Assembly: GCA_944326585.1 (NCBI GenBank)
Contig: CALVEN010000003.1
Location: 62,001 to 126,000 of the forward strand
From: Candidatus Gastranaerophilales bacterium
Lineage (GTDB): Bacteria > Cyanobacteriota > Vampirovibrionia > Gastranaerophilales > Gastranaerophilaceae
Reading direction: 5' to 3'
DNA: 64,000 nucleotides
Below, piece by piece: positions 37,553 through 41,106 of the stretch. Position 1 is the first letter of the stretch; each line of letters opens with the position of its first letter. A program made the position numbers and the translations under genes. Below the pieces are notes generated by a model. It had not been told where the DNA came from and did no database searches. It worked only from the letters and a program-made list of their open reading frames with translations.

Positions 37553-38233
37553 TCAGCGCACGGAAACGTATTTTACGTACGGCTTTAAAATATTCGTAAT
37601 TTCTTTGAATTCGGCATCTGTATAAGTTGTTTCCGTCATCATTTTGGGATCTAAAGTTTTGGACGGGACAAATTTTTGAAGATAATATTTTTCGGCACCT
37701 TTTATAAGTTTGCCGATTGCACGAAAATCATCATAGCTCAATTGCGATTTTACAACTGTTGTCCTGAATTCATAGCCGATACCGGAGGTCATAATAATAT
37801 CAATACTTTCGCGGATTTTTTCGGAATTGATTTTGGAATTGGTAACAAGCGGATATTTTTCAATCGGGGCTTTTATATCCATTGCAATGTAATCCAAAAA
37901 AGGCAATAACCCTTTAATTTTTTCGGGGAAAGTGCCGTTGGAATCCAATTTAACAAGAAAACCGAGCTTTTTAATCTCTTTTATAAAATCTTTCAAATCA
38001 GACTGAAGGCAAGGTTCACCGCCTGTAATCACAACCCCGTCAAGCTTGCCGCGTCTTGTATTTAAAAATTCAAGAAAGGCCGGCACAGTCCATGCCGGCT
38101 CATTTCTTACAGCTATAAGTTCAGGATTGTGGCAGTAACCGCATCTGAAGTTACACCCCTGCGTAAAAACGATTGTGCTGATTTTATCGGGGAAATCCAA
38201 TAACGATGTTTTTTGAACTCCGCCTATGAGCAT
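37553..38233 (-). CDS. nrdG: Anaerobic ribonucleotide reductase activating radical SAM protein
   Basis: Generates the glycyl radical on NrdD (226 residues). The iron-sulfur motif is GCNFRCGYCHNPEL (C27, C31, C34); VVITGGEPCLQ is the second SAM-binding block and VKLDSNGTFPE the third. The start overlaps the nrdD stop by ten bases, so the pair is translationally coupled and shares the cobalamin riboswitch. The length fits the NrdG variant that reads pyruvate formate-lyase-activating enzyme-like. Confidence 0.92.
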   Translation of the reverse strand: MLIGGVQKTSLLDFPDKISTIVFTQGCNFRCGYCHNPELIAVRNEPAWTVPAFLEFLNTRRGKLDGVVITGGEPCLQSDLKDFIKEIKKLGFLVKLDSNGTFPEKIKGLLPFLDYIAMDIKAPIEKYPLVTNSKINSEKIRESIDIIMTSGIGYEFRTTVVKSQLSYDDFRAIGKLIKGAEKYYLQKFVPSKTLDPKMMTETTYTDAEFKEITNILKPYVKYVSVR

Positions 38234-40059
38234 TCCGAAATCACAAATTCCTTTCTGTCCTTGAATTCACGTTTTTTGCCTTTATTCCACTGGGTTACGG
38301 GTCTGATATAGCCCACAACACGTGAATAGACTTCGCATTCGGCGCCGCATTCAGGGCAGGTAAAGTGTTCGCCTGCAACATAACCGTGATTCGGGCATGT
38401 GCTGAATGTCGGTGAGAATGTGAAATACGGGAGGTGATAATTGTTGCACACTTTTTTAACAAGGTTTTTCATAGTTTCAATGTTATGAATTCTTTCCCCT
38501 GCAAAAATATGTAAAACAGTACCGCCTGTGTATTTAGTCTGCAAATCATCCTGATGATCAAGCACTTCAAAGATATCATCGGTATAATTTACCGGCAACT
38601 GAGTTGAATTTGTGTAATAAGGATATTTTTGCCTGTCAAGTTTAGCAAGCCTGTAGGAAGTACCTTCACCCGGTGTGGCTTCAAGGTTGTAGTTGTGGCC
38701 GGTTTCTTTCTGGAATTCTTTAATTTTTTCTCTCATAAAGTCCATAACCTCAACCGCAAACTGTTTTCCGCGGAAGCTGCCGATGTCATCGGCTAATAAG
38801 TTCAAGCATGCTTCATTCATACCTATCAAACCGATTGTAGAGAAGTGGTTTTTCCAGTATACACCAAATCTTGATTTGATATCCCTCAGGTAGAATTTTG
38901 TATAAGGATAAAGATTTTTGTCAGTCAAATCTTCCAATAAAGCTCGTTTGATTTCCAAACTTTCTTTAGCAAGCTCCATTTTTTCAGCCAATTTAGATAA
39001 AAATTCACCTTTAGTTTCGGAATTTGCAGCGATTTTCGGAAGATTAATCGTAACAACGCCGACAGACCCCGTCAGAGGGTTTGAACCGAACAATCCGCCG
39101 CCTCTGTATTCAAGTTCTCTGTTGTCAATTCTTAATCTACAGCACATAGAACGTGCATCCTCCGGTGACATGTCGGAATTGATGAAGTTTGAGAAATACG
39201 GAATGCCGTATTTTGCAGCCATTTCCCATAAACCTTCGATATTTTTATTATCCCAGTCAAAATCTTTTGTAATATTATATGTCGGAATAGGGAATGTAAA
39301 TACTCTGCCTGAATTGTCGCCTTTCATCATAACTTCGAAGAACGCTTTATTCAGCATGTCCATTTCTTTCTGGAAGTCTTTGTAAGTTTCTTCCATCAAT
39401 TCGCCGCCGATAATAACAGGCTGTTCCGCATAATATGAAGGAACCGTCAAATCCATTGTGATATTTGTGAAAGGTGTCTGGAACCCTACACGTGTCGGAA
39501 CATTCATATTAAATACAAATTCCTGCATAGCCTGTTTAACCTGATCATATGTCAGATTGTCATATCTGATAAACGGCGCAAGAAGTGTATCAAAATTTGA
39601 GAAGGCTTGAGCGCCTGCAGCTTCTCCCTGCATTGTATACATAAAGTTTACAACCTGACCTAAGGCTGTTCTGAAGTGTTTTGCAGGAGCGCTTTCAATT
39701 TTACCTTTAACTCCGGTAAAACCTTCAGTCAATAAATCTTTTAAATCCCAGCCCACACAGTATACTGATATGATATTCAAATCATGGATATGAATATCAC
39801 CGTTTATATGAGCGTTTTTGATATCAGCCGGATAAATTTTATTAAGCCAGTAGTTTTTGCTGATTTCGGAAGCTATATAATTATTAAGCCCCTGAATAGA
39901 ATAAGACATGTTCGAATTTTCATTAACCTGCCAGTCAAGCTGTTTCAAATAATTATCGACAAGCGAAATATTTGAATCCTGAACCGGATTTGACATAAAA
40001 GCTCTCTTTGCGGAACCCAAATCGACAACATTGTTGTCCTTCAAAATTGCATTGTTCAT
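38224..40059 (-). CDS. nrdD: Anaerobic (class III) ribonucleoside-triphosphate reductase
   Basis: Reduces ribonucleotides to deoxyribonucleotides using an oxygen-sensitive glycyl radical (611 residues). The radical glycine is in SRVVGYIRPVTQWNKGK; the zinc site is CPNHGYV..CPECGAEC; active-site segments include SMCCRLRIDNRELEYRGG and VVTINLPKIA. An N-terminal ATP-cone, present in many NrdDs, is absent: the protein starts close to the catalytic barrel, so allosteric activity control may be missing. A cobalamin riboswitch lies in the leader. The ribosome site GGGAG is inside an AAATCT/AGATTT hairpin. Confidence 0.95.
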   Translation of the reverse strand: MNNAILKDNNVVDLGSAKRAFMSNPVQDSNISLVDNYLKQLDWQVNENSNMSYSIQGLNNYIASEISKNYWLNKIYPADIKNAHINGDIHIHDLNIISVYCVGWDLKDLLTEGFTGVKGKIESAPAKHFRTALGQVVNFMYTMQGEAAGAQAFSNFDTLLAPFIRYDNLTYDQVKQAMQEFVFNMNVPTRVGFQTPFTNITMDLTVPSYYAEQPVIIGGELMEETYKDFQKEMDMLNKAFFEVMMKGDNSGRVFTFPIPTYNITKDFDWDNKNIEGLWEMAAKYGIPYFSNFINSDMSPEDARSMCCRLRIDNRELEYRGGGLFGSNPLTGSVGVVTINLPKIAANSETKGEFLSKLAEKMELAKESLEIKRALLEDLTDKNLYPYTKFYLRDIKSRFGVYWKNHFSTIGLIGMNEACLNLLADDIGSFRGKQFAVEVMDFMREKIKEFQKETGHNYNLEATPGEGTSYRLAKLDRQKYPYYTNSTQLPVNYTDDIFEVLDHQDDLQTKYTGGTVLHIFAGERIHNIETMKNLVKKVCNNYHLPYFTFSPTFSTCPNHGYVAGEHFTCPECGAECEVYSRVVGYIRPVTQWNKGKKREFKDRKEFVISECS

Positions 40060-40169
40060 AAAAAAAATCTCCCAGATTTCCGTGGTTGTACTACAAACTT
40101 ATATAAGCATTCCGACTGTAACGGCTGCGGTCCAGTGAGGGATTTTCACCCGAACTTTCCTTACATAAG
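40060..40169 (-). promoter_or_regulatory. Cobalamin (B12) riboswitch in the nrdD leader
   Basis: On the minus strand the leader shows the conserved core: GGGTGAAAATCCC, CACTGGACCGCAGCCGTTAC and AGTCGGAATGC. The core is closed by a 10-bp helix between CTTATGTAAG (40160-40169) and CTTATATAAG (40098-40107). Downstream a TTGT-AGT-ACAA hairpin is placed where the regulatory kissing stem-loop of this class lies, and the SD GGGAG sits in an AAATCT/AGATTT hairpin next to the nrdD ATG. B12 binding should hide the ribosome site and switch off nrdDG. The consensus is recalled from the family; no covariance-model score was computed. Confidence 0.82.
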
Positions 40170-40217
40170 TAATATGATTTTATAACTATTTTTCAAATTT
40201 GTCAATAAATCTCATTT

Positions 40218-40421
40218 TTAAGGAATAACATAAATAGTATATACTTCGCCTTCAACAAGCGTAACAAGATATTTAATAAAATTTTTATTCTCAGGATCAG
40301 GACCAACATGAGTTATATTTGTAACAAAATCATTATCAAGGAATTTTCTTACTTCCTTGAGAGTAAAATTTTTCTGTAAAAGAGAATCTCTAAATTTTAC
40401 ATATTCGCGATCTTTATTCAT
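40218..40421 (-). CDS. Small protein of unknown function, probably leaderless mRNA
   Basis: A 67-residue soluble protein, NKDREYVKFRDSLLQKNFTL and a C-terminal beta-rich part (YLVTLVEGEVYTIYVIP). There is no ribosome site; instead a TATAAT box lies only six bases before the ATG, so transcription would start at or next to the start codon. The gene is isolated between nrdD and the 40458 gene. Coding status rests on amphipathic, compositionally sensible sequence and the promoter. Confidence 0.5.
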   Translation of the reverse strand: MNKDREYVKFRDSLLQKNFTLKEVRKFLDNDFVTNITHVGPDPENKNFIKYLVTLVEGEVYTIYVIP

Positions 40422-40457: not shown

Positions 40458-41060
40458 TTATTTAATATTCTTAAAAAATTCGTCCGCAATCAGCTGTGAA
40501 TACTTATCTTTTTCCGTAACGGATATAAGCAGCCTGTCTTCACCTTTGGAATCTTTCACAACGGATATAATACCGGCAACATCTCCTATAGGAAGTTTTT
40601 TAACCTTAGCTTCAAATTTAACATACGGTGCTGATTTCCCGTAAGATGAAATTGTTCCGCGTTTTGTCACCGTCAAATCATTTACGGATATCGCCTGATA
40701 TTTTATTTTTTTAACTGAATTGCGCAATTTTTCTTCAATATCATCGGATTTCAAATCTTCGGCCGTTAATAAGGGTTTTTCACCTGTATCAACCACAATC
40801 ATCTTTTGACCGGTTGCCTTATGCTCCGCCACAACCGCGTTATACCCCATGACACCTGCGGCTTTTTCTATCTCAAATTCATCATTAAGTTTTGAAAAAT
40901 CACCGACTTTTTTTGCTCTCTCAAGCATGACATCCTGTGACGGATTCAGCCAATTACCCAGCCAGCCGCCGATTAATTCACGTCCGCCGAGCGACATAAA
41001 CCCTACTATAGCAAGGGTTATTACAACAGCTCTAACAATATTCCTCAGACAGCCAATCAT
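40458..41060 (-). CDS. Membrane-anchored protein, unknown function
   Basis: A 200-residue protein with one N-terminal membrane helix (IVRAVVITLAIVGFMSLGG) followed by a soluble domain (about residues 40-200) with VVAEHKATGQKMIVVDTGEK and ISVVKDSKGEDRLLISVTEK. No family recognised. ATG 41060 was chosen: AAGGAATTCAAG precedes it and a longer frame to 41195 would run through the mutS promoter and start. It is divergent from mutS with 46 bases between starts. Confidence 0.65.
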   Translation of the reverse strand: MIGCLRNIVRAVVITLAIVGFMSLGGRELIGGWLGNWLNPSQDVMLERAKKVGDFSKLNDEFEIEKAAGVMGYNAVVAEHKATGQKMIVVDTGEKPLLTAEDLKSDDIEEKLRNSVKKIKYQAISVNDLTVTKRGTISSYGKSAPYVKFEAKVKKLPIGDVAGIISVVKDSKGEDRLLISVTEKDKYSQLIADEFFKNIK

Positions 41061-41106
41061 CTTGAATTCCTTTTTTATAATTTTAATGTATAATAATATT
41101 ATAATT

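Follow-up and report, generated by a model that had tools for sequence, protein, structure and literature searches.

Why would a gene for a B12-independent ribonucleotide reductase (RNR) be preceded by an RNA that appears to sense B12? This question arises at the minus-strand nrdD locus of the window, by which we mean the whole stretch of 64,000 nucleotides of Gastranaerophilales DNA that was analysed. The reading that we favour, and to which we give a probability of roughly 0.88 on the evidence of sequence, is that the nrdD leader acts as a translational, B12-repressed AdoCbl-II riboswitch and that NrdD-NrdG is a reserve enzyme. Within this reading we infer that a ligand binds, which ligand it is, in which direction control runs and why the cell has the switch.

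The nrdD gene (38224-40059, minus strand) encodes a class III RNR of 611 aa that matches TIGR02487 at 589 bits and NF006126 at 989 bits, and nrdG2 (37553-38233, minus strand), which overlaps nrdD by 10 nt, encodes a radical-SAM activase of the NrdG2 type that matches TIGR02495 at 205 bits, such that enzyme and activase are both above their NCBIfam cut-offs (TIGR02487 and TIGR02495). Searching the window's NrdD against Pfam returned NRDD only, with no ATP-cone domain. NrdD in the window's genus is about 611 aa long and without an N-terminal ATP-cone, compared with 700-aa open frames in many relatives, and allosteric control of NrdD without this domain may differ from that in the relatives. Upstream of the nrdD promoter lie two small minus-strand open reading frames (40218-40421 and 40458-41063) that have no NCBIfam match.

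A predicted AdoCbl-II aptamer ahead of nrdD

A cmscan of the whole window, with same-clan overlapping matches of lower score left out, revealed a single match above the gathering score, namely RF01689 (AdoCbl-II) at 40177-40097 on the minus strand, which covered the full model (1-81) with a score of 38.0 bits (E 1.9e-5; gathering score 36.5 bits). The earlier note, made from the letters of the window, had proposed a B12 riboswitch before nrdD, and a cobalamin covariance model above threshold bears this out; the class it had named (RF00174/RF01482) gives way to RF01689, and the closing helix that it had counted as 10 bp comes to 11 bp, including one G-U.

The leader, comprising riboswitch and expression platform, spans 111 nt (40060-40170, minus strand, as are all leader features that follow). 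Its closing helix is formed by a 5' arm, ACUUAUGUAAG (40160-40170), that pairs with a 3' arm, CUUAUAUAAGU (40097-40107). Three inner hairpins follow, these being a P4-position hairpin of T-loop type, GGG-UGAAAAU-CCC (40139-40151), a P5 hairpin, CUG-GACCG-CAG (40125-40135), with the loop L5 GACCG at 40132-40128, and a P6 hairpin, CCG-UUACAGU-CGG (40112-40124). The first and third of these (GGG/CCC and CCG/CGG) carry seven-base loops of T-loop type, are invariant in the nrdD-type alignment described below (A5) and were paired by RNAalifold. The AdoCbl-II architecture of a closing helix with P4, P5 and P6 round a junction is present in the window's leader, and we regard this RNA as confirmed in its assignment as a predicted AdoCbl-II cobalamin riboswitch.

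Conservation and covariation across the order

For 160 nrdD genes from the order Gastranaerophilales, the upstream regions were searched with a model built here (R1), which derives in part from the surveyed leaders themselves, the motif search being identical for all loci and blind to nrdJ. This search revealed the same RNA at the same position before nrdD in 85 of the 160 sampled loci. Of 238 genomes from the order, 221 have the AdoCbl-II class somewhere, not always before nrdD. An RNAalifold run on a mixed alignment (A1) yielded only 6 pairs because MAFFT had misplaced the non-nrdD members, and this alignment was replaced by A5, which is ungapped, of nrdD type and composed of 33 distinct leaders.

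Within A5, compensatory changes were seen in 8 of the 11 pairs of the closing helix, and the closing-helix cells with both sides changed numbered 52, compared with 20 ± 4 in shuffles. Pairing across the whole structure held in 91.5% of cells versus 33-50% when the partner was slid by 1-3 columns, with the inner hairpins at 97-100% and the closing helix at 85%, and closing-helix arms re-mated between leaders paired at 63% versus 84%. These data also bear on the reading that the window's aptamer has decayed and lost binding, to which an RF01689 score only 1.5 bits above the gathering score might point. We find such decay barely credible, as all core blocks are kept and the closing helix is complete, same-genus relatives keep the aptamer with compensatory changes, and nrdD-type leaders in general often score low against Rfam.

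In several genomes of genus g7 (upstream of nrdD in L118, L139, L069, L101, L104 and L076), a further AdoCbl-II lies within about 1 kb of the nrdD switch on the opposite strand, and the nrdD aptamers there are longer than the model by insertions of about 40-55 nt.

Promoter and expression platform

The promoter scan identified a near-consensus pair on the minus strand, with a -35 element TTGACA (40200-40205) and a -10 element TAAAAT (40177-40182) that match at 11 of 12 positions across a spacer of 17 (40205-40177). This pair ends 6 nt ahead of the closing helix, and its TTGACA is seen again in most related nrdD leaders. Given its position, nrdD RNA should begin at or near 40170, where the 5' arm of the closing helix starts.

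Between the aptamer and the start codon lies a P13-like hairpin of 3 bp in the window, CCA-CGGAAAUC-UGG (40072-40085), which presents an L13 CGG (40082-40080) complementary to the CCG of L5. The Shine-Dalgarno sequence GGGAG (40069-40073), recognised from its sequence, sits 9 nt upstream of the nrdD start codon; the 3' arm of P13 overlaps it, as P13 does in most relatives. So short a hairpin over the Shine-Dalgarno sequence is common by chance, occurring in 43% of shuffled leaders versus 88% of those observed, and because the stem is both short and prone to chance, the case for P13 rests on a linked change of L5 and L13 together with the published behaviour of the class. Minimum free energy was discarded as support for the leader, the folding energy being not unusual (z 0.46), and conservation was taken as the evidence instead.

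The linked change was followed across 50 leaders. The L5 base after CUGG was A in 22 of them, all with an L13 of CGG[AAA/UAA/UU]UC, and U in another 26, all with an L13 of CG[A/U/C/AU]GAC, which brings A-U or U-A to 48 of 50, with one G-U and one unresolved leader making up the rest. In one leader of the window's genus g1 (L172), both L5 and L13 are switched when compared with the eight others of the same nrdD type in that genus, and some three separate change events can be counted by eye without a tree. The arms of P13 also vary between leaders, from CCA/UGG to CCU/AGG. Because L5 belongs to the aptamer and L13 to the expression platform, their linked change supports docking of the two.

The mechanism that we propose would run as follows. 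Transcription of nrdD would start at or beside the closing helix, and when corrinoid is absent the Shine-Dalgarno sequence would be free and NrdD-NrdG would be made. Adenosylcobalamin in the junction would cause L5 to dock with L13, the docking would stabilise the P13 hairpin that holds part of the Shine-Dalgarno sequence, and translation of nrdD and of the coupled nrdG would decrease. With NrdD-NrdG reduced, DNA precursors would be supplied by NrdJ, the class II enzyme that depends on B12.

The minimum free energy fold holds a competing hairpin, GGAAAUCU-GGG-AGAUUUUU (40081-40061), that exposes the core of the Shine-Dalgarno sequence in its loop and is followed by U residues. One could take this A+U-rich hairpin (GGAAAUCU-GGG-AGAUUUUUUUU, 40081-40061) for a terminator opened by the docking of L13, such that B12 turns nrdD on, and an activating corrinoid riboswitch of like logic is that of A. 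halodurans cobT (PMC10653944). The hairpin, however, has few G-C pairs, was not listed by the terminator scan and is missing in many relatives with the same switch (e.g. ...GAGACUAGGAGAUUUG...), whereas the layout of P13 and the Shine-Dalgarno sequence is kept. Moreover, there is no reason for B12 to turn on an enzyme that does not need it, and genomes that lack nrdJ mostly lack the nrdD switch too. Terminator-based control of nrdD, unsupported by both the terminator scan and conservation, was rejected, and we consider the activating reading quite improbable.

NrdJ and the distribution of the switch

For translational repression by B12 to make sense in the way proposed, a B12-dependent RNR should be at hand, and the earlier note had placed one elsewhere in the genome. 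Single-family profile searches of the window's genome (G000; 1.70 Mb, 99.7% complete) revealed one nrdD and one nrdJ, the latter a full-length, single-copy gene (G000:C5:8160-9917) that matches TIGR02504 at 740 bits and is also above the cut-off for NF006417, 'vitamin B12-dependent RNR'.

The further claim that the switch exists because of NrdJ holds in the relatives. With a strong switch defined as one of 40 bits or more in the nrdD-leader survey, such a switch precedes 80 of the 96 nrdD loci in genomes with full-length nrdJ versus 5 of the 64 where nrdJ is absent (by-locus Fisher p 8e-23, related genomes not being independent). The association is weaker when counted by genus (27/32 versus 5/14 with the switch, p 0.002). 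For the NrdD type with profile end 580, the switch is found at 69/74 loci with nrdJ versus 5/21 without, and for the type with profile end 581 at 11/22 versus 0/43. In nine genera (g4, g10, g17, g19, g41, g42, g43, g46 and g48) every sampled nrdD locus comes from an nrdJ-less genome, and the switch is found at 0 of these 57 loci. The five nrdJ-less exceptions come either from genera that carry nrdJ in some other genome (g6, g11, g18 and g40) or from a genome that is 66% complete (G051). Sixteen of the 96 nrdD loci in nrdJ-bearing genomes are without a strong switch match, and the surveyed genomes are metagenome-assembled. That the switch is kept with nrdJ and mostly missing without it supports cross-class switching. 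Many genomes of the order also have nrdJ and no nrdD, which suggests NrdJ as the principal enzyme and NrdD as the reserve.

AdoCbl-II is also kept at other places in genomes of the order that have no nrdJ, which would suit an aptamer that senses corrinoid on account of some other B12 enzyme (e.g. MetH or QueG) or of redox state, rather than of NrdJ. Two observations make this highly improbable for the nrdD leader: its switch tracks nrdJ, and a search for the B12-binding domain gave nothing over the cut-off in the window's genome, which speaks against MetH. Provided that the repressing switch works as we propose, it would tie DNA synthesis in these gut bacteria to their corrinoid supply.

Corrinoid supply and a second AdoCbl-II operon

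The earlier note had also expected a B12 uptake or salvage capacity. On the side of salvage, the window's genome encodes two CobA/BtuR corrinoid adenosyltransferases; on the side of recognised uptake genes, neither the FecCD (BtuC) family nor a TonB plug (BtuB) was found in this genome. A PduO-type adenosyltransferase was likewise not found there, and the single weak match to the B12-binding domain (PF02310) was dismissed as a B12 enzyme because its open reading frame resembles an MtaB-type methylthiotransferase. The genome has NrdJ and two CobA/BtuR though the known importers were not found.

A second AdoCbl-II of the same genome (C1:289441-289518, 44.1 bits) leads an operon that lies outside the window (L195:5442-8230, on G000:C1). 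The first gene after this switch encodes the CPHGLPxGACPICNGM protein, which is 228 aa long and bears CPHGLPMGACPICNGMSGGG early in its sequence. This CPHGLP family was found in 272 genome stretches, 80 of which were kept (L203-L282), all being Gastranaerophilales/Melainabacteria records or uncultured bacteria without a finer name. Among the kept loci, AdoCbl-II lies directly upstream of the CPHGLP gene in 80 of 80, two of them scoring just 26.6 bits. The next gene in 79 of 80 encodes a 500-aa protein predicted to have membrane segments, and a 153-aa protein is near the CPHGLP gene in 77 of 80. The three operon proteins have no confident family in Pfam or NCBIfam, and the AlphaFold models of the two larger ones are of low confidence (pLDDT 48 and 59). 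In other families of the order, an orphan switch was seen by eye to precede a TonB-dependent-receptor-like protein (L007, L026 and L031).

Because no TonB plug, FecCD or PduO-type family was found in the window's genome, we regard the second operon as a candidate system for acquiring or handling corrinoid. More tentatively, it is possible, if rather doubtful, that this lineage-specific operon replaces BtuB/BtuCDF in that role and feeds NrdJ, with nrdD as the fallback when corrinoid is short. A second riboswitch-led operon in a genome where known importers were not found gives the search for a new B12 acquisition system a concrete starting point.

Comparison with known systems

In Streptomyces, a cobalamin riboswitch before the class Ia nrd genes represses a B12-independent RNR when a B12-dependent RNR can work. 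That switch differs from the nrdD leader in that it controls a class Ia enzyme and belongs to another aptamer class.

The earlier note had called such a switch less usual before NrdDG, which was wrong because B12-elements before nrdDG, with nrdJ in the genome, were described in 2004 in Desulfovibrio vulgaris and Desulfuromonas. The proposal made then for delta-proteobacteria was that these elements repress nrdDG so that NrdJ is used instead (PMC545781), and in Propionibacterium acnes the leader of nrdDG carries a like annotation (PMC3848588). These systems share with ours the placement before class III RNR genes, the presence of NrdJ and the proposed logic. Unlike them, the present case lies in another phylum, in an order of cyanobacterial relatives that do not photosynthesise, is of the AdoCbl-II class and comes with an across-order test of the nrdJ link. 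That absence of the B12 enzyme goes with absence of the switch on its substitute in this uncultured gut lineage provides a clean comparative test of a 20-year-old proposal. Our literature search returned no paper joining Gastranaerophilales with riboswitches, and such a paper may still exist.

At the level of the kissing loops, the window's L5 CCG and L13 CGG would form the very pairing that mutations established for the metE riboswitch of Priestia megaterium (PMC10653944), and the variable bulge of L13 among nrdD leaders fits the 1-2 nt bulge that the kissing helix is reported to need (PMC10907184). The env8 hydroxocobalamin and E. coli btuB switches hide the ribosome site by L5-L13 docking of the kind that we propose for the nrdD leader (PMC10653944, PMC10907184), with env8 having a compact aptamer as in the nrdD leader, and they differ from our leader in target gene as well as in the sequence and bulge of L13. 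The principle is already known, such that the nrdD switch of Gastranaerophilales is mostly ordinary in comparison with these systems and the second AdoCbl-II operon is the more novel lead.
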